From NCBI RefSeq assembly GCF_001517835.1, contig NZ_LOQG01000036.1, positions 1-64,000 on the forward strand: 64,000 nucleotides of DNA. Direction: 5' to 3'. The position numbers and the translations under genes are program-made. The stretch is from Caviibacter abscessus. Its GTDB lineage: Bacteria > Fusobacteriota > Fusobacteriia > Fusobacteriales > Leptotrichiaceae. The notes below the pieces were generated by a model. That model was not told where the DNA came from, ran no database searches, and saw only the letters and a program-made list of their open reading frames with translations. Below are positions 25,196 to 47,701 of this stretch, piece after piece (positions within the stretch are counted from its first letter, which is position 1; each line of letters begins with the position of its first letter).

Positions 25196-26812
25196 TTATT
25201 TAACCGTTTCAGTTAATTTTTGTTTTAAATCTTCTATATTATCGCCATTTTCAGTATTTACATAAATATAGAACTTAATTTTTGGCTCTGTTCCCGAAGG
25301 TCTTACTATTATATGAGTATCATTTTCAAGTTTTAGGCTTATAACATTTTCTTTGGGAAGACCTGTCTCTTCCAGATAGTCAATTTTTTCAACTACTTTA
25401 TATCCAAAAAGCTCTTTTTCAATATTATGTCTGTAATAATTCATAACTTCATTTATCTTTTGTTTACCTTCAATACCTTCAAGTGTTATGTTTATTACTC
25501 CTGATTTATAGTGTCCATATTTATCGTAAACTTTCTCAAGTTCTTTTACTATATTAGTTCCTTTTTTCTTATAAAATGCCGCCATTTCACAAACCAACAT
25601 AGCTCCCAATACTCCATCTTTATCACGAGTAAAACTTCCGTATAACATACCGAAGCTTTCTTCAAAACCAAATAAGAAACTACCGTTTAACGCTCCTTCT
25701 TCAAATTGTTTTATTTTCTCTCCTATATATTTAAATCCTGTTAAAGTTTTTATAACTCTTATGTTTTTTATATTATCAACCATAGGTGTTGAAACTATTG
25801 TTGTAACTATTGTGCTATTTGTCTTTATATCTTTTTTATAATTTAAAATATAGTCTATCATAAGCATTCCAAGTTCATTTCCGCTTATATAATGTAGTTT
25901 ACCTTTATCATTAACACATAAACCTATTCTATCAGAATCTGGGTCGTTGTTTATTAAAACATCAGTATTTTCATCCATTACTTTTATTGCCTGTTCAAAA
26001 GATTTTGGATCTTCTGGATTTGCATAATCTATAGTCGGAAAAGTACCATCTGGTTTAAACTGATTTTCTACAACTTTTACATTATATCCCATTTGAGTTA
26101 ATAAAGTATATACCGTATTTCCTGCTGCACCGTGAAGTGGAGTGTAAACAACATTTAACTTATCTTTCCAATTTATGTTATTTATCGTAAGACTTTTTAA
26201 ATCCTCTAAATACATTTTATCAATACTATCATCTAATATATTTACTTTTGCATTTTCATCATATTTAATTTCAGAAAAACTTTTTATAGTATCAACTTCA
26301 TTAATTATTCTGCTTGCATGTGGTTCAACTATTTGAGCTCCATCTTCAAAATATACTTTATAACCGTTATATTCCTTTTTATTATGGCTTGCTGTTATTA
26401 CTATTCCAACCATACATCCCAATTTTCTAATAGCATAAGAAAGTTCTGGAGTTGTTTTTATATCTTCAAAAACATATGCTTTTATACCATTTGATGAAAA
26501 TACCTTAGCAGTATTCATTGCAAACTCATATGACATATTTCTTGGATCATAAGCTATAACAGCACCTTGACTTATTGCTTTTTCTTTATAATTTTTTAAA
26601 AGATAATTTGATATTCCTTGTGTTACTTTTCTTATAAGGTAAACATTCATTCTATTAGGACCTAATCCTATTTTACCTCTTATTCCTCCTGTACCAAAAG
26701 ATAGTGTCGTATAAAAAGAATCTTTAATCTCATCTTCTGTCATATTTTTAAGTATTTCTTTATCTTCATTAGTAATATATTCATCATTTAGCCATCTTTC
26801 ATATTCTTGCAT
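25196..26812 (-). CDS. pgm: Phosphoglucomutase/phosphomannomutase family enzyme
   Basis: Interconverts hexose-1- and hexose-6-phosphates. About 538 residues in four domains. The phosphoserine loop TASHNKKEYNGYK (near residue 140), the metal loop DPDSDRIG (near 290), the sugar-binding GFEESFGML and the phosphate-binding RPSGTEPKIKFY are all intact. Length fits the PgcA/PMM group rather than GlmM. Start: a GTG at 26824 is possible, but AAGGAG lies 11 bases before the ATG at 26812, which gives a normal family N-terminus (MQEYERWL). It is the last gene of the queH operon. Confidence 0.93.
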   Translation of the reverse strand: MQEYERWLNDEYITNEDKEILKNMTEDEIKDSFYTTLSFGTGGIRGKIGLGPNRMNVYLIRKVTQGISNYLLKNYKEKAISQGAVIAYDPRNMSYEFAMNTAKVFSSNGIKAYVFEDIKTTPELSYAIRKLGCMVGIVITASHNKKEYNGYKVYFEDGAQIVEPHASRIINEVDTIKSFSEIKYDENAKVNILDDSIDKMYLEDLKSLTINNINWKDKLNVVYTPLHGAAGNTVYTLLTQMGYNVKVVENQFKPDGTFPTIDYANPEDPKSFEQAIKVMDENTDVLINNDPDSDRIGLCVNDKGKLHYISGNELGMLMIDYILNYKKDIKTNSTIVTTIVSTPMVDNIKNIRVIKTLTGFKYIGEKIKQFEEGALNGSFLFGFEESFGMLYGSFTRDKDGVLGAMLVCEMAAFYKKKGTNIVKELEKVYDKYGHYKSGVINITLEGIEGKQKINEVMNYYRHNIEKELFGYKVVEKIDYLEETGLPKENVISLKLENDTHIIVRPSGTEPKIKFYIYVNTENGDNIEDLKQKLTETVK

Positions 26813-26814
26813 TT

Positions 26815-28383
26815 TTAATAACACTCCTTTATTATTTTTTCAGCACATCTTATTCCGTCTACAGCAGCTGTCATAATTCCACCTGCATATCCTGCACCCT
26901 CTCCACAAGGAATTAATCCTTTTATGTTTGAATACAATTCATCATCTCTTAATATTCTAATCGGTGAAGAACTCCTACTTTCAACACCTGTAATTATTAC
27001 ATCATTTGATGCAAAACCATTTATTTTTTTATCTAATTTTATTAAACCGTCTCTTAAAGTTTCATTTATATATTCAGGAAATAAAACATTTAAATTTGTT
27101 AATTTATATCCTATACTATAACTTGGTTTAATACTTTTTAATGCTTTTGTTACTCTATTTTGAATATAATCCTCAACTAATTGAACCGGTGCCTTATAAT
27201 CACTTCCACCTAATTCAAATGCTTTTTTTTCAAGATCTCTTTGAAATTTTACTCCTGCCATTAAATCATCTTCCAAGTCTTCAGGATTTACATTAACTAG
27301 AACTGCTGAATTTGCATTTTCTAAATCTCTATTATTATAACTCATTCCATTTATAGCTATATGACCTAATTCACTTGCAGCAGGAACTACAACACCTCCA
27401 GGACACATACAAAAAGTGTAAACTCCTCTTCCATTGTCAGTTCTTACATTTAATTTATATTCTGCCGGAGGAAGTCCTAAATCATCTCTTCCATACTGCA
27501 TTTTATCTATCATTTTTTGTTTATGTTCTATTCTAACACCAACTGAAAATATTTTCTTAGTCATATTTATTCCGATATCTTTTAACATATAAAAGGTGTC
27601 TCTGGCACTATGACCTATCGCAAGTATACATTTATCAGTTTCTAAAATATACTCTTTTTCTTTTGTTAAAACTTGAAGAGAACTTAAATTATTATATTTA
27701 TCATAGTTAATACCTATAACTTTATTTAAAAATCTGTATTCTCCACCTAAACTTACTATTGTTTCCCTTATTTTCCTTACTATTTTTATAAGTTCATCAG
27801 TTCCAATATGTGGTTTTGATAAATATGATATAGCCTCATCTGCTCCTGCAAGTATTAATTCATCTATTACTATTTTAATTCTTTCATTGTGTGAATTTGT
27901 AGTAAGTTTTCCATCTGAAAATGTTCCGGCACCACCTTCACCATACTGAACGTTTGATTCTGTGTTTAATTTACCTGTTTTAAAAAATTCATAAACATCC
28001 TCAACTCTTTCATCAACCTCTTTACCACGTTCAAGTATAATGGGTTTTAATCCTGCTCTCGCAAGTATTAATCCTGCAAAAATACCGGCAGGTCCACTAC
28101 CTATTACAACAGGTCTTTTTCCTTTATATGAACTTAAATTTGGTATAATGTAGTTTAAAGGCTCAATTTTTTTTATAGTATTACCATTAATATATTGCTC
28201 TTCATTTTCTAACTCAACATCTATAGAATATACTATTTTAATATTTGATTTTTTTCTGGCATCTATTGATTTTGCTGATATTTTAAACTTTGTAATATCT
28301 GCATTTAATATCTTTTCTGCTTCTTTTTTTATATCTTCATTACTATGCTTTATACCTAATTTTATTCCTGAAATTCTAATCAT
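26815..28383 (-). CDS. FAD-dependent dehydrogenase (COG2509 type)
   Basis: A soluble flavoprotein of about 522 residues. The dinucleotide fold VIGSGPAGIFAGLILARAGL, followed by ILERGKEVDER, binds FAD. Further marks are YGEGGAGTFSDGKLTT, FCMCPGGVVVPAASE and the C-terminal GEGAGYAGGIMTAAVDGIR. The family is common beside queuosine or cell-wall genes but has no defined substrate. Start: the longest frame starts at 28455, inside the neighbour; ATG at 28383 with GGAG seven bases upstream yields the expected MIRISGIKLGIKH start. It overlaps the previous stop by eight bases. Confidence 0.88.
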   Translation of the reverse strand: MIRISGIKLGIKHSNEDIKKEAEKILNADITKFKISAKSIDARKKSNIKIVYSIDVELENEEQYINGNTIKKIEPLNYIIPNLSSYKGKRPVVIGSGPAGIFAGLILARAGLKPIILERGKEVDERVEDVYEFFKTGKLNTESNVQYGEGGAGTFSDGKLTTNSHNERIKIVIDELILAGADEAISYLSKPHIGTDELIKIVRKIRETIVSLGGEYRFLNKVIGINYDKYNNLSSLQVLTKEKEYILETDKCILAIGHSARDTFYMLKDIGINMTKKIFSVGVRIEHKQKMIDKMQYGRDDLGLPPAEYKLNVRTDNGRGVYTFCMCPGGVVVPAASELGHIAINGMSYNNRDLENANSAVLVNVNPEDLEDDLMAGVKFQRDLEKKAFELGGSDYKAPVQLVEDYIQNRVTKALKSIKPSYSIGYKLTNLNVLFPEYINETLRDGLIKLDKKINGFASNDVIITGVESRSSSPIRILRDDELYSNIKGLIPCGEGAGYAGGIMTAAVDGIRCAEKIIKECY

Positions 28384-41942: not shown

Positions 41943-42704
41943 ATGATTAAAATACAACGACAAAACAAGATATTAAAATATTTATCTATAAACGGGACTA
42001 TTTCTATATCTTCATTATCAAAAGAATTTAACTGTAGTGAAGAAACTATAAGAAATGATTTAAAACAACTTGAGTTAATCAGTAAACTTAAACGTACTCA
42101 TGGCGGAGCATATATAGAAGACACTCATGACAGAGGTATTCCAAATGATATAAAGGAAAATCTTATGTTAGATGAAAAAAGATACATAGCAGAGCTTGCT
42201 ATAAAGTACATAAAAAATAACAATACAATTATGCTTGATTCAAGTACAACATGTATAGAACTTGTAAAAAAAATACTTGAAACTGATTTATACATCACTA
42301 TAATTACAAACTCTTTACAAATATCAAATTTATGTATAAATTCTCAAAATATAAAAATAATACTTGTTGCAGGAAAATTAAATAAAAAAACAAAATCATT
42401 GACAGGACATTTAACTACACAGGTTTTAGAACTTTTCAAACCAGATATTTCATTTATAAGTTTTCCTACCATAGATAAAAAACAAGGTTTCGGTGATAAC
42501 ACAATTGAAGAATTGACAATAAGAAATGCAATGTTATCTAATTCAAGAAAGAATATAATACTTTTAGATAATACAAAATTTAGAGATAATTCATCAGTAA
42601 TCTTTACACCCGTTAAAAATATTGACATAGTTATTACAGATAAAAAAATAAGTACTGAATGGAAAAGTTTTTTTGAAAATTTAAAAATTGAAGTTATTTT
42701 TTAA
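41943..42704 (+). CDS. DeoR-family transcriptional regulator
   Basis: 253 residues. The N-terminal winged HTH (about 5-60) reads RQNKILKYLSINGTISISSL, SEETIRNDLKQLE and THGGAY, the DeoR hallmark. The C-terminal sugar-phosphate-sensing DeoRC domain has MLDSSTTCIELVKKI, TNSLQISNLC, ILVAGKLNKKTKSL and SRKNIILLDNTKF. Such proteins respond to phosphorylated sugars. It faces the five-gene nucleoside cluster end to end, so it is the best candidate for its regulator, sensing a pentose- or deoxypentose-phosphate. Confidence 0.9.
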   Translation: MIKIQRQNKILKYLSINGTISISSLSKEFNCSEETIRNDLKQLELISKLKRTHGGAYIEDTHDRGIPNDIKENLMLDEKRYIAELAIKYIKNNNTIMLDSSTTCIELVKKILETDLYITIITNSLQISNLCINSQNIKIILVAGKLNKKTKSLTGHLTTQVLELFKPDISFISFPTIDKKQGFGDNTIEELTIRNAMLSNSRKNIILLDNTKFRDNSSVIFTPVKNIDIVITDKKISTEWKSFFENLKIEVIF

Positions 42705-42710
42705 TTATAA

Positions 42711-42747
42711 AAAAATCGTTTTTCTTTTTAAAGATTAACGATTTTTT
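42711..42747. terminator. Bidirectional terminator between the regulator and the aldehyde reductase
   Basis: AAAAATCGTT pairs with AACGATTTTT (10 bp) around a 16-base loop, with T-runs on both sides. Confidence 0.8.
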
Positions 42748-42765
42748 CATATTTATAATTCTAAA

Positions 42766-43932
42766 TTAAAGTGCAAATTTTAAAACTTCTATAACTTCAC
42801 TTAAAGAAAGACCCGTATAATGTCCGATTTTCATTTTATCATTTTTGGTAGCTTTAATAGCCATTTTAGTAAATTTATCATCTTTTATGTTAAAGTTTGA
42901 AAGTTTTGTTCTCATTCCAATAGAAATGTATATTTGCTCCAATTTATCAGCAAGTAATAATGCAAGTTCTTTTTCAGAATAATTTTTATAATCATACCCA
43001 AATAATCTATTTGCTAATTGTGCAAGTTTTTCAGGAGCTTTATCTGCCATGTACCTTATATATGCCGGCAAAACTGTAGCCATACCTTCTCCATGTGTTA
43101 TACCATATTCTTGTGATAATTCATGTTCTATTCTATGCGATGCCCAGTCTGAAATTCTACCACAATCCAATAAGTTATTATGAGCTATTACTGAAATAAA
43201 AAATATTTCTGATAATGCATTTCTATTTTTATTGTCTTTTAATAATCTTTCAACATTTAAAAACAAAGATTTAAGCATTCCCTCTATCATATAATCTGTT
43301 GTATCTACAAATTTAACAGATGTAAAATATCTTTCAAGTAAATGAGCTGATATATCTGTAATTCCTGCAAACATTTGAAATTTTGGAACAGATTCCAAAT
43401 ATAACGGGTTTAATATTGCAAATTTCGGAATTAAAAAATCATATTCTATTCCAAGCTTGTTTTCATCACTTGAAAGAATAGAGGCATTAGAAGTTTCCGA
43501 ACCGCTTGAAGCAATTGTTGATATAACACCGATTGGAAGTGCTTTCGTAGGTTCTGATTTATATAAATAAAAATCCCAAACATCAATGTCACTTTTAGCT
43601 CCTACAGCTACAGCTTTTGCCGTATCAACACTTGAGCCTCCTCCTACAGCTAATATGAAGTCTATATTTTCTTTTTTACATAAATTTATTAATTCTCTTG
43701 CAAGTTCAAGTTTTGGATTGGGTACAACTTTATTTTCATAAAAATAACTAATATTTAAATTTTCACATACATTTATAATCTCATCATATATTCCTAAATC
43801 TTTTATAAAATCTCCACTACTAAGTATTAACATTTTTTTTACGTTAAATTTTAAAAGTTCTTCTTTTAAATATGATAAACTGCTTTCTCCAAATATTATT
43901 TTGGCACCATTTTGAAACTTAAAATCTTTCAT
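42766..43932 (-). CDS. Iron-dependent alcohol dehydrogenase, YqhD/BDH type
   Basis: 388 residues of the group III Fe-ADH family. Metal ligands are D193, H197 (GITDISAHLL), H266 (WASHRIEHE) and H280 (ITHGEGMA). The nucleotide loop is AVGGGSSVDTAKAV. The WASHRIEHELS segment is typical of YqhD-like NADPH aldehyde reductases rather than FucO. In this cluster it probably reduces the aldehyde released by the aldolase (glycolaldehyde, acetaldehyde or methylthioacetaldehyde), which is an inference from context. Last gene of the operon. Confidence 0.9.
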   Translation of the reverse strand: MKDFKFQNGAKIIFGESSLSYLKEELLKFNVKKMLILSSGDFIKDLGIYDEIINVCENLNISYFYENKVVPNPKLELARELINLCKKENIDFILAVGGGSSVDTAKAVAVGAKSDIDVWDFYLYKSEPTKALPIGVISTIASSGSETSNASILSSDENKLGIEYDFLIPKFAILNPLYLESVPKFQMFAGITDISAHLLERYFTSVKFVDTTDYMIEGMLKSLFLNVERLLKDNKNRNALSEIFFISVIAHNNLLDCGRISDWASHRIEHELSQEYGITHGEGMATVLPAYIRYMADKAPEKLAQLANRLFGYDYKNYSEKELALLLADKLEQIYISIGMRTKLSNFNIKDDKFTKMAIKATKNDKMKIGHYTGLSLSEVIEVLKFAL

Positions 43933-43944
43933 AATAACATCTCC

Positions 43945-44535
43945 CTATAAATCTAATATCCTAGGATCACCTAATGTTTTTGCATAATAGTATATCTTGG
44001 CTGCATCTTCTACATATTCAGCAGCTAAAAATGCTTCATCTATGTCACTTCCGCAACTTATAGTTCCGTGGTTTCCTAATATACATGAATTTCTATTTTC
44101 TAAATATGGTAAAACTGTTTCTCCAAGCTCAGCAGATCCCGCAGGTTTAAAAGGAGATACTTTTATATCACCACCTAAATAAGGTTTCATTTCAACTAAA
44201 ATTAAGGGTACATTTTGGTAAACAACTGAAAGTGCAGTTGCAAAAGTTGAATGAGTATGAACAATCGCATTATATTTAGAATATTTTTTATAAACTGCTA
44301 TGTGCATTTTCCATTCAGAAGAAGGCTTAAGCCCATTAATATACGGTTCTCCATTTGAATTAATTTCAACTACATCACTAGGCGTCATTTTATTATATGG
44401 TATCCCGCTTGGTGTTATAAAAAAGCTGTCTTTCTTTTTTAAATTTCTTATGCTTATATTCCCACTAGTTCCTGCTACCAATCCCCTGTTATATAAATTT
44501 TTCCCAGCTTCAACTATCAATTCTTTTAAATCCAT
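43945..44535 (-). CDS. Class II aldolase, FucA/AraD family
   Basis: 196 residues of the L-fuculose-phosphate aldolase/AraD family. Zn ligands H93 and H95 (IVHTHSTFATAL) and H156 (GNHGTIS), and catalytic E74 (PSSEWKMHIAVY) are present, with TSGNISIR and TPSGIPY binding phosphate. Because isomerisation, not kinase, precedes it, the substrate should be a ketose-1-phosphate, giving DHAP plus an aldehyde. The AraD epimerase alternative is unlikely next to the ADH and isomerase genes. Confidence 0.88.
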   Translation of the reverse strand: MDLKELIVEAGKNLYNRGLVAGTSGNISIRNLKKKDSFFITPSGIPYNKMTPSDVVEINSNGEPYINGLKPSSEWKMHIAVYKKYSKYNAIVHTHSTFATALSVVYQNVPLILVEMKPYLGGDIKVSPFKPAGSAELGETVLPYLENRNSCILGNHGTISCGSDIDEAFLAAEYVEDAAKIYYYAKTLGDPRILDL

Positions 44536-44587
44536 TTCTATTTTATGATAAAGTCTATAACTAATATCATATACTCCTTTCTTATAT

Positions 44588-45634
44588 TCAGTAAAATTTT
44601 ACAGTTTCATTTTTAAAATATGTATTTAAATCAAAAGAAGAAAAAATACCCTTATCAGTAACAATTCCACTGATAAGATAAGGAGGAGTAATATCAAACG
44701 AAGGATATATAGCCTTTGATTTTTCATATGAATGATTACCAAGTACCAATTTTGGATCTTTCATTTCTATTACTATATCTTTTTCATCATATTTGTCATC
44801 ATCAGGTATACCTGTAACAAAATAAGGTATTTTAAAATGGTTTGCAAGTATTGCAATTTGATATGTCCCTATCTTATTTGCAATATATCCTTGTCTTGTA
44901 ATGGTATCAGCCGCTGAAGTAAACAAATTAATTTTTTCATATTTCATAGCATAGGCTATCATATTGTCAGTAATTACGGTTGTATCAAAACCCATTTCAG
45001 AAAAGCACGTTGCAGTTAGTCTTGCACCTTGAAAATATGGTCTTGTTTCTGCACAGTAAACTTTTACATTAAGTTTATTCTGAAGCTTTAAAACCTTAAT
45101 AAGCATACCTATTATTGTTTCTCCAAAACATTGTGTAAGTATTCTGTCTTCATCTTTTATTTGACTTGCTAAATATACCGCAACTTTTTCCATTATCATA
45201 TATCTTCTTTCAAGTGATTTTATAGTTTCTTCTTTTATAGCCTTTGCTACGTCCATATTATTATAAATCGCACTTTTAGCTATTTTTAAGCAATTATTAG
45301 TTATTTTTTCCATTCTATTTGCCGTTGTAGGTCTTGCATGTGATAAGATATAACTTGCTTTTTCTAAGTATTTTATTTGTTCCTCTTTATTTTTATTCTT
45401 ACATTCAAACGCCGCTAAAGCCATTCCCATTCCAACTGCCGTATATGGTCCTGCACTTTGTGTTACCATATCAAAAATAGCCCTTGCAACTTCTTCATAT
45501 TTAGTACATTTTACAAAAGAAATTTTTTCAGGATAAATCCTTCTATCTAATATATTTACATAACCGTCTTCATAAAACCACGCAATATTTTCATATTTAA
45601 GCATAAACGGCAAATCTTCATCATATCTTTTCAT
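44588..45634 (-). CDS. MtnA-like sugar-1-phosphate isomerase
   Basis: 348 residues of the eIF2B/MtnA family. Family motifs: SAGPYTAVGM (61-70), RPTTAN (101-106), ETRPYFQGARLT (197-208), ITDNM, NKIGTY (253-258) and DITPPYLISG. The catalytic Cys (C169 in ILTQCFGE) and Asp (D243 in SAADTI) are kept. However, the usual THCN-G loop is TQCFGE, so substrate preference may have shifted. Expected reaction: aldose-1-phosphate (5-methylthioribose-, 5-deoxyribose- or ribose-1-phosphate) to the ketose-1-phosphate. Sits between permease and aldolase genes. Confidence 0.85.
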   Translation of the reverse strand: MKRYDEDLPFMLKYENIAWFYEDGYVNILDRRIYPEKISFVKCTKYEEVARAIFDMVTQSAGPYTAVGMGMALAAFECKNKNKEEQIKYLEKASYILSHARPTTANRMEKITNNCLKIAKSAIYNNMDVAKAIKEETIKSLERRYMIMEKVAVYLASQIKDEDRILTQCFGETIIGMLIKVLKLQNKLNVKVYCAETRPYFQGARLTATCFSEMGFDTTVITDNMIAYAMKYEKINLFTSAADTITRQGYIANKIGTYQIAILANHFKIPYFVTGIPDDDKYDEKDIVIEMKDPKLVLGNHSYEKSKAIYPSFDITPPYLISGIVTDKGIFSSFDLNTYFKNETVKFY

Positions 45635-45655
45635 AAAAATTCCTCCGAAATACTT

Positions 45656-46948
45656 TTATTTATTAATTCTAGGCTCTTTCCACCATGCATAAATAAGTAC
45701 TACCAAGCAAAATATAAACATAGGAATTATAGCTCCCTGTTCTTTTAAGTAACTGTAGCTTGACATAAATCCTATTATATATATAACTATGCTTATAACA
45801 GGTATAACATACATAGCCCACTTAGGTAATTTAAATGCTGCTTTTTCATAAGCGTCAGGATTTTTTTTAAGTAAAAACATTACAGCTATTACAGGAAATA
45901 TAGAAAATATTAATCCTATGTTAGTTCCTATAACTGAAATTGCTCTAATTTCCTGTCCTAAAATAATAGGTATCATTCCTGCGATATAATACATAAGTAA
46001 AAGCCAATGTGGAGTTTTAAACATTTTATTTTCTTGAGCCAGTTTTTTAGGTAACCACCCGTCATTTATAGCAGCTTTTATACCTTTTGTCGCCCAAGCA
46101 AATACTGCATTTAATGATGAAAGAAGTGCTGCCATTCCTCCACCTATCATAAATACAAGATACATCCAGTTAGGTAAAATTTTTTTAGCAACTATACCTA
46201 AATTTTTAAATGCTACTTCTTCAATAGGTAAAACTCCTGCTGCAACTATAGCAATAAATAAATATAAAACAGAAACTGAAAATGTTGATGCAAGCATTGC
46301 ATACGGTATATCTCTTCCTGGATTTTTAGAATCTCCCCCGAACTCAGATAAAAATTCTGCACCTATTAGTGCATATCTTACTAAAACCGAAGCTGCTAAA
46401 AAATTTCCAATTCCTTGTGGGATAGTATTTTTTAAAGTAAAAAAAGATGTAAAATCATTTACCTGCGGTAATCCAAAACCTACAAAAGCAAGTAATGACA
46501 ATACAAGTATTGAAACTACGAATCTTTGTAAAAATACACTGCTTTTTAAGCCTACAATATTAACTAAAAATACAAAAGTCATCATTATAGCAGCCACTAT
46601 ATGAACATTTATAAAAGGGAATAATTCTTTTGCATAATCGGCAAATCCTATTGCATATTGAGCAAGTATAAATTGACCAAATACTAAAAGTGCAACATAG
46701 AAAAAAGCTGTTTTTTTGCCTATTAAATCTCTTACATAAGTATACATTCCACCTGCGTTAGGTATAGCTGAACCCAATGCTGCTATTGATATCGTAGGAA
46801 TAATTACTATAATACCTGCAACAGCAAAAGAAATTGCAACTCCTTTTCCTGTCATTCCTATCGCTATACAAAGTAAAACCATGATACCCGACCCTATAAT
46901 TTGACCAACTCCCATTATTAAAAGCTCAAAAAAACTCAATTTTTTCAT
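45656..46948 (-). CDS. APC-superfamily permease
   Basis: 430 residues, about 12 membrane segments. N-terminal MGVGQIIGSGIMVLLCIAIG corresponds to the APC GxxIGxGIF motif. SVLVRYALIGAEFLSEFGGD resembles the conserved region of the sixth segment. Amino acids or polyamines are the common cargo. Its location inside the nucleoside/isomerase/aldolase operon suggests transport of a pathway substrate or product, or an amino acid tied to it. That cannot be decided from sequence. Confidence 0.85.
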   Translation of the reverse strand: MKKLSFFELLIMGVGQIIGSGIMVLLCIAIGMTGKGVAISFAVAGIIVIIPTISIAALGSAIPNAGGMYTYVRDLIGKKTAFFYVALLVFGQFILAQYAIGFADYAKELFPFINVHIVAAIMMTFVFLVNIVGLKSSVFLQRFVVSILVLSLLAFVGFGLPQVNDFTSFFTLKNTIPQGIGNFLAASVLVRYALIGAEFLSEFGGDSKNPGRDIPYAMLASTFSVSVLYLFIAIVAAGVLPIEEVAFKNLGIVAKKILPNWMYLVFMIGGGMAALLSSLNAVFAWATKGIKAAINDGWLPKKLAQENKMFKTPHWLLLMYYIAGMIPIILGQEIRAISVIGTNIGLIFSIFPVIAVMFLLKKNPDAYEKAAFKLPKWAMYVIPVISIVIYIIGFMSSYSYLKEQGAIIPMFIFCLVVLIYAWWKEPRINK

Positions 46949-46963
46949 TTTTAACCTTCTTTC

Positions 46964-47701
46964 TTATATTTCAATTTTAATAAGAGCATCAAGTGCAATT
47001 ATTGCACATTCTTCAACAGTTTCCTTTAAAACTTCAGGATCGGGGTCATTATCTTCTGCTGAATTTAAAACTTCCAGTGCATTTCCATCAACTGAAAGTA
47101 TAGAGCCTACTTTAACATTATATAAAGAACCTGCTGTATATAACGCTGAAACTTCCATTTCTAAAGCTATTGCTCCTGCTTGTGCCTGTTTTTCAGTGTT
47201 GGTTTCCATTATACCACCGTAAAATGCACCTTGTGTTACAATTATTCCATTATGAACATTTTTATCTGTTTTCTCAGATTCCTTTATCAAAGTATTTACA
47301 ACATTTAAATCTGCTATTGCAGGAAATGAATCAGGAACATAAATATTTGATACACCATCTTCCTTAGCAGCTGCTATAGGTATAACAATGTCTCCCGCTT
47401 TTATATTTTCATTTAACGAACCGCATGTTCCAAGCCTAATAATAGCACAAGCTCCACCTTTTATAAGGCTTATAAATGACAACATAGCTCCACTTGCACC
47501 TACACCGTGAGATGATATATTTATAGGAACTCCTTTGTACTCACCGTAATATGTCCAATACTCTCTCCCCTTTGCTAAACATTTTACATTTTGTAATTTT
47601 TTTGATAACATTTCTGCTCTGAACGGATCTCCACAAACTAAAACTCTTTTTTCAATATCACCTTTTCCAAGTCTTATACCAGGTAATAAGTCTTTTGACA
47701 T
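46964..47701 (-). CDS. Nucleoside phosphorylase, PNP/UDP family
   Basis: 245 residues. Phosphate-binding marks VLVCGDPFRAE (G24 region) and the R89 of IIRLGTCGSL, followed by SHGVGASGAM, then FYGG and ALEMEVSALY at 179-188 for the ribose. The pattern lies closer to uridine phosphorylase-like proteins than to DeoD hexamers, but base preference is not readable. It produces a sugar-1-phosphate, exactly the substrate of the MtnA-like gene two positions downstream. First gene of the cluster. Confidence 0.9.
   Translation of the reverse strand: MSKDLLPGIRLGKGDIEKRVLVCGDPFRAEMLSKKLQNVKCLAKGREYWTYYGEYKGVPINISSHGVGASGAMLSFISLIKGGACAIIRLGTCGSLNENIKAGDIVIPIAAAKEDGVSNIYVPDSFPAIADLNVVNTLIKESEKTDKNVHNGIIVTQGAFYGGIMETNTEKQAQAGAIALEMEVSALYTAGSLYNVKVGSILSVDGNALEVLNSAEDNDPDPEVLKETVEECAIIALDALIKIEI

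Follow-up and report, generated by a model that had tools for sequence, protein, structure and literature searches.

The 64,000-nucleotide window analyzed here (Caviibacter abscessus, contig NZ_LOQG01000036.1, positions 1 to 64,000) carries on its minus strand a five-gene operon that probably encodes a dihydroxyacetone phosphate (DHAP) shunt for 5'-deoxyadenosine and/or 5'-methylthioadenosine (MTA), entered by way of a nucleoside phosphorylase. A previous reading, made from the sequence alone, had proposed a kinase-free operon resembling the DHAP shunt at 42766-47701, and this proposal is borne out: open reading frames and family assignments confirm the five genes, their order and their position, the catalytic residues of the isomerase and the aldolase are retained, and no S-methyl-5-thioribose (MTR) kinase over the cut-off was found anywhere in this genome. 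Similarly, the suggested chemistry of phosphorolysis, isomerization, aldol cleavage and aldehyde reduction remains the best reading of the gene set.

The operon and its proposed pathway

The genome that holds the window, that of a bacterium of host-associated type, is 1.22 Mb in size, 99.4% complete and assembled in 40 contigs. Read from 47701 to 42766, the five genes follow each other with intergenic gaps of 15, 21, 52 and 12 nt and form a real operon, with hairpin terminators at both borders. The elements are as follows.

47862-47834, minus strand: hairpin terminator of the preceding adhP gene, the upstream border of the operon (folding z -4.8)
47761-47734, minus strand: promoter-like site TTGACT-N16-TATAAT, 5' of the phosphorylase gene (sequence match)
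46964-47701, minus strand: nucleoside phosphorylase of the NP-I family (245 amino acids, PF01048)
45656-46948, minus strand: APC-superfamily permease (430 amino acids, PF13520)
44588-45634, minus strand: MtnA-like aldose-1-phosphate isomerase (348 amino acids, PF01008)
43945-44535, minus strand: class II aldolase of the FucA/DrdA type (196 amino acids, PF00596)
42766-43932, minus strand: iron-containing alcohol dehydrogenase (Fe-ADH; 388 amino acids, PF00465; nearest named model PRK15138, below its cut-off)
42709-42750, both strands: hairpin terminator for both directions, separating the Fe-ADH gene from the DeoR gene (folding z -5.9 and -4.6)
41943-42704, plus strand: DeoR-family repressor gene, convergent with the operon

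In the proposed pathway, the APC permease would import (or balance) a purine 5'-deoxynucleoside, 5'-deoxyadenosine and/or MTA, which the phosphorylase, resembling purine nucleoside phosphorylases (PNPs), would split with phosphate into adenine and 5-deoxyribose-1-phosphate (or methylthioribose-1-phosphate). As entry would occur by phosphorolysis, no ATP or kinase would be spent. The MtnA-like isomerase would convert the sugar-1-phosphate into the corresponding ribulose-1-phosphate derivative, and the aldolase would release DHAP from the latter together with acetaldehyde (or methylthioacetaldehyde), an aldehyde that the Fe-ADH would then reduce. The DeoR-family repressor, whose gene had been left out of the sequence-only reading and accompanies these enzymes in many relatives, is probably the local regulator of the operon. 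No Rfam families or tRNAs were found within the window.

Kinase and phosphorylase front ends among relatives

Isomerase orthologs were found in ten of 60 relatives, this genome counted, and at 25 loci in other genomes. Neighborhoods were inspected at 34 isomerase loci (L012-L045) in Fusobacteriota, Bacillota and Vibrionaceae, and at 24 of them an MTR kinase gene is found no more than about 8 kb from the isomerase ortholog; the kinase examples that were scanned score well over the TIGR01767 cut-off. The usual companions at these loci are an NhaC-type permease, an aldolase, an Fe-ADH and a DeoR regulator. Adjacency of isomerase and MTR kinase recurs in four records of a plasmid collection, the RefSeq annotation of Lactobacillus intestinalis shows the trio mtnK, isomerase and L-fuculose-phosphate aldolase, and a Fusobacterium vincentii record holds a closely similar kinase-form module.

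Eight of the 60 relatives have an MTR kinase over the cut-off, and all eight belong to the ten isomerase genomes, an overlap with a chance probability of about 2 in 10^8 under the assumption, not valid here, of independent genomes. Among the ten, only the present genome and the relative G015 lack the kinase, and these are the two with the phosphorylase and the APC permease in the operon. In G015 the gene set is conserved (55-74% identity) and lies on a single strand in the order PHOS-APC-MTNA-ALD-DeoR-FeADH, the DeoR gene having shifted to a position within the operon. The isomerase tree places this genome, G015 and a third, kinase-bearing relative, G013, in one fully supported clade in which G015 and G013 are sisters (92/81); the aldolase tree joins these three genomes to kinase-form Terrisporobacter (99/99). 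One back end is thus used with either front end: isomerase, aldolase, reductase and repressor make up a salvage back end with interchangeable front ends, either a sugar permease with a kinase or a nucleoside permease with a phosphorylase. DrdK, the MTR/5-deoxyribose kinase of the DHAP shunt, does not act on ribose (PMC6079011), and isomerases that pair with this kinase would therefore be expected to work on sugars of the 5-deoxy or 5-methylthio type.

G013 possesses the kinase form and, unlinked to its isomerase genes, a phosphorylase-permease pair (66-67%) as well. The start of the phosphorylase promoter in the window, TTGACTTTTTT, is common to the promoters of G015 and G013, and within G013 the promoter regions of the isomerase-aldolase genes and of the phosphorylase have the exact 16-mer ACATTTCCCAAAAAAG in common. 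These two promoters hold the only exact copies in 265 kb of that genome, in which no site has one or two mismatches and three sites have three. The presence of the 16-mer at both promoters points to common control and a shared pathway even with the genes apart, and the pair is apparently co-regulated with the isomerase-aldolase genes. In G013 the pair adjoins an NMT1/THI5-like ABC transporter of the thiamin-precursor type (L086:4443-9149). This location, away from the isomerase operon, would suit a different view, namely that the pair works in the salvage of adenine or nucleobases and shares a transcript with an unrelated sugar-phosphate pathway by chance. We regard this as highly unlikely, given that the pair is part of the operon in two genomes that differ in gene order, that the promoter element of 16 bp is common to both G013 units, and that the orthologous pair occurs only in isomerase-bearing genomes.

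Outside these genomes, a search at E 1e-45 through 391 genomes from the class that includes Terrisporobacter (a sample without positive control) gave no member of the phosphorylase clade. The next-best matches in the phylum reach 39-40% identity; matches from plasmids are of low identity (about 28-34% among the matches listed, and all below 60%). No alternative phosphorylase was found among ten neighbors tested in the kinase-free isomerase neighborhoods of gut clostridial metagenome-assembled genomes (MAGs).

Some further genes were observed near isomerase orthologs. A gene resembling 5'-deoxyadenosine/MTA/S-adenosylhomocysteine (SAH) deaminases (PRK06038/PRK07228, below cut-off) adjoins the isomerase gene of one gut clostridial MAG (L040:6886-7977), which speaks for the 5'-deoxynucleoside shunt. 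The MTR-kinase modules of Bacillota (L021:9077-11508, L025, L029, L035, L120) include a conserved extra 2-hydroxyacid dehydrogenase and an FGGY kinase, the latter nearest to autoinducer-2 kinase, below its cut-off. An Oscillospiraceae MAG carries a VanG-type D-Ala-D-Ser ligase, over the NCBIfam cut-off, near its isomerase (L033:6197-7291).

The phosphorylase and its predicted substrates

The phosphorylase is an NP-I family member that forms a clade of its own near PNPs and uridine phosphorylases and lies over the cut-off of no curated model. Among NCBIfam models it scores best with uridine phosphorylase and DeoD but stays under both cut-offs, and the MTAP/MtnP model is absent among its matches (E 0.001). 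Uridine phosphorylase was rejected as its identity: the score is 145 bits against a cut-off of 280, and the uracil-binding Gln/Arg region and loop, the region that discriminates uridine phosphorylases (PMC7271239), is missing in the alignment.

Alignment to Plasmodium falciparum PNP (PfPNP) reveals a complete phosphate site (equivalents of G23, R27, R45, R88 and T91), the E184 equivalent with the Met-Glu pair that serves the ribose hydroxyls, and the purine-type equivalent of Asp206, which protonates purine N7. The most distinctive change concerns His7, which in PfPNP contacts the ribose 5'-OH (PMC3885546): all three orthologs have glycine at this position, where PfPNP and all six controls of the uridine phosphorylase-like and DeoD-like types have histidine. 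From these residues the enzyme is predicted to be a phosphorylase of purine 5'-deoxynucleosides, that is, of 5'-deoxyadenosine or MTA.

It might be argued that ordinary purine ribonucleosides and 5'-deoxynucleosides are both used, the operon then serving general purine and carbon salvage. By sequence, the nearest characterized relatives are the Plasmodium PNPs, which accept inosine and methylthioinosine to about the same extent (PMC3885546), and class II aldolases are promiscuous (PMC6079011). However, all three orthologs have lost the histidine, an MTR-kinase module takes the place of the phosphorylase in relatives, and the genome has a separate DeoD. These points speak for a narrower range, and such broad specificity is improbable.

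Permease, isomerase, aldolase and alcohol dehydrogenase

The APC permease is predicted to be a nucleoside importer or, alternatively, an adenine exporter. Its orthologs (67-73%) occur only in G013 and G015, always adjoining the phosphorylase, and none was found at 1e-40 in 18 other isomerase-holding genomes.

The isomerase, the sole IF-2B family member of the genome, lies over the cut-off of the MtnA subfamily (NCBIfam PRK05720, 316 against 271 bits) and far below that of ribose-1,5-bisphosphate (R15P) isomerase (111 against 314 bits). Alignment to Bacillus subtilis MtnA (2yrf) places its retained cysteine (LTQC) and aspartate (SAAD) at the positions of the MtnA catalytic residues.

The best solved relatives of the aldolase are DrdA (6btd/6btg) and Escherichia coli FucA (1dzw), and the FucA-type catalytic glutamate (PSSEW) and the three metal-binding histidines (VHTHS, GNHG) are kept. 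In agreement with the sequence-only reading, it is a class II aldolase and not an epimerase of the AraD type (L-ribulose-5-phosphate 4-epimerase; TIGR00760, 74 bits against a cut-off of 389). MtnB dehydratase was likewise rejected as its identity (84 against 137 bits). An MtnB function would be required if the operon returned the sulfur of MTA to methionine by full methionine salvage, a view to which the MtnA type of the isomerase and the common fold of MtnB and aldolases lend themselves. In addition to the MtnB score and the best alignment with FucA/DrdA, the operon contains no MtnC, MtnD or MtnE gene, and an alcohol dehydrogenase fits an aldehyde product, making full methionine salvage extremely unlikely. 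The Fe-ADH, whose gene accompanies those of the isomerase and the aldolase in many relatives, is predicted to reduce the aldehyde released by the aldolase.

Genomic context and weighing of the readings

Commonly, relatives possess Pfs, the nucleosidase also termed MTAN, which removes MTA, 5'-deoxyadenosine and SAH. It was found over the cut-off in 58 of the 60 relatives, the exceptions being this genome, where loss in an assembly gap is possible, and G004. LuxS was not found in this genome either. The genome contains two NP-I proteins only, the operon phosphorylase and DeoD, and gives seven radical S-adenosylmethionine (SAM) matches, which make 5'-deoxyadenosine production likely. With no Pfs, two NP-I proteins and the radical SAM matches, the operon phosphorylase may be the only sink for 5'-deoxyadenosine in this genome. 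A replacement of Pfs by the operon is not required, since G015 keeps Pfs alongside the same operon. The shunt might thus offer a Pfs-less genome of 1.2 Mb a route to dispose of 5'-deoxyadenosine or MTA, inhibitors of radical SAM enzymes, and at the same time yield DHAP and spare an ATP.

Several points weigh against a 5'-deoxynucleoside shunt. APC permeases are better known as amino acid transporters. The phosphorylase-permease pair is present in three genomes only, and its association with the shunt therefore rests on few cases. The 265 kb that serve as background for the 16-mer of G013 cover roughly one fifth of that genome. In PfPNP, a His7Ser substitution shifted the preference about 16-fold toward methylthioinosine, His7Ala caused no such shift, and Tyr160Phe lowered the use of methylthioinosine (PMC3885546); the phosphorylase in the window has phenylalanine at the position of Tyr160. 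Because the PfPNP mutants point both ways, the altered 5' pocket supports a 5'-deoxy substrate without proving it, and we read the residues of this pocket as leaning toward such a substrate. Finally, the phosphopentomutase DeoB was not found in the genome.

With DeoB missing, ribose-1-phosphate formed by DeoD needs another exit, and this bears on the sequence-only suggestion that uridine or other ribonucleosides enter the operon and yield glycolaldehyde and ethylene glycol. Uridine, inosine or adenosine would be converted via ribose-1-phosphate and ribulose-1-phosphate to DHAP and glycolaldehyde, and the latter to ethylene glycol. Class II aldolases are able to cleave ribulose-1-phosphate, and a haloarchaeal route from nucleosides to DHAP and ethylene glycol is known, which proceeds by other enzymes (PMC9700705). 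However, the isomerase orthologs pair with MTR kinase, and the phosphorylase has neither the Gln/Arg pair of uridine phosphorylases nor the histidine for the 5'-OH. Furthermore, ordinary nucleosides are served by a separate operon elsewhere in the genome (C1:14971-22709, equivalent to L087:972-8710), which encodes a Bmp-type ABC transporter, a pyrimidine-nucleoside phosphorylase, DeoC, DeoD and Cdd. DeoB loss was rejected as the reason for the operon: of the 16 relatives that lack a DeoB over the cut-off, 3 have the isomerase, as do 7 of the 44 that possess one, and no association emerges across the 60 genomes. Two large proteins of the phosphohexomutase family, one of 542 amino acids in the window (25196-26824, minus strand; far below the cut-off of archaeal GlmM) and one of 580 (L106:316-2058), may be phosphopentomutases of a non-DeoB kind and could supply this activity. 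The suggestion of uridine or other ribonucleosides as substrates is accordingly not upheld, and a ribonucleoside shunt is in our view unlikely. For purine nucleosides in particular, a flow of their ribose-1-phosphate through ribulose-1-phosphate to DHAP and glycolaldehyde in this DeoB-less genome is a doubtful proposition; if true, it would bypass the pentose phosphate pathway without any kinase, a route of which we found no report in bacteria. We therefore favor the shunt for 5'-deoxyadenosine and/or MTA.

Comparison with known systems

A DHAP shunt entered by a phosphorylase is already known as a concept: a pathway form of phosphorylase, isomerase and aldolase was predicted from a Clostridium phytofermentans cluster (PMC6079011), and an MtnP variant of the shunt has been described (PMC10986504). 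The window operon resembles these forms in having phosphorylase, isomerase and aldolase and no kinase, and differs, at the level of NCBIfam models, in its PNP/uridine phosphorylase-like phosphorylase.

With the kinase form, DrdK-DrdI-DrdA of Bacillus thuringiensis and mtnK-mtnA-ald2-permease of E. coli ATCC 25922, the operon has in common an MtnA-type isomerase, a FucA/DrdA-type aldolase, a permease, a DeoR-type repressor (MtnR in E. coli; PMC12632272), and DHAP and an aldehyde as (here predicted) products. In contrast to that form, it has a phosphorylase in place of the kinase, an APC permease and an Fe-ADH within the operon, and it resides in a Pfs-less genome. The MTR-kinase modules of Fusobacteriaceae, Terrisporobacter and Vibrio have an orthologous isomerase (54-64%), aldolase, Fe-ADH and DeoR regulator; they differ by their front end of NhaC permease and MTR kinase and, in Bacillota, by the added 2-hydroxyacid dehydrogenase and FGGY kinase.

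The non-carboxylating pentose bisphosphate pathway of haloarchaea is similar in its nucleoside phosphorylase, its ribulose-1-phosphate-type aldolase, its aldehyde reductase and its product DHAP, and leads by other enzymes from guanosine to DHAP and ethylene glycol (PMC9700705). Its ribose-1-phosphate kinase, R15P isomerase and ribulose-1,5-bisphosphate phosphatase have no counterpart in the window operon. C. abscessus appears to differ from the known systems in several respects: its PNP-like phosphorylase is not of the MtnP type and has a changed 5' pocket, an APC permease is the partner of this enzyme, an MTR-kinase module can take the place of the two, and the genome lacks Pfs.

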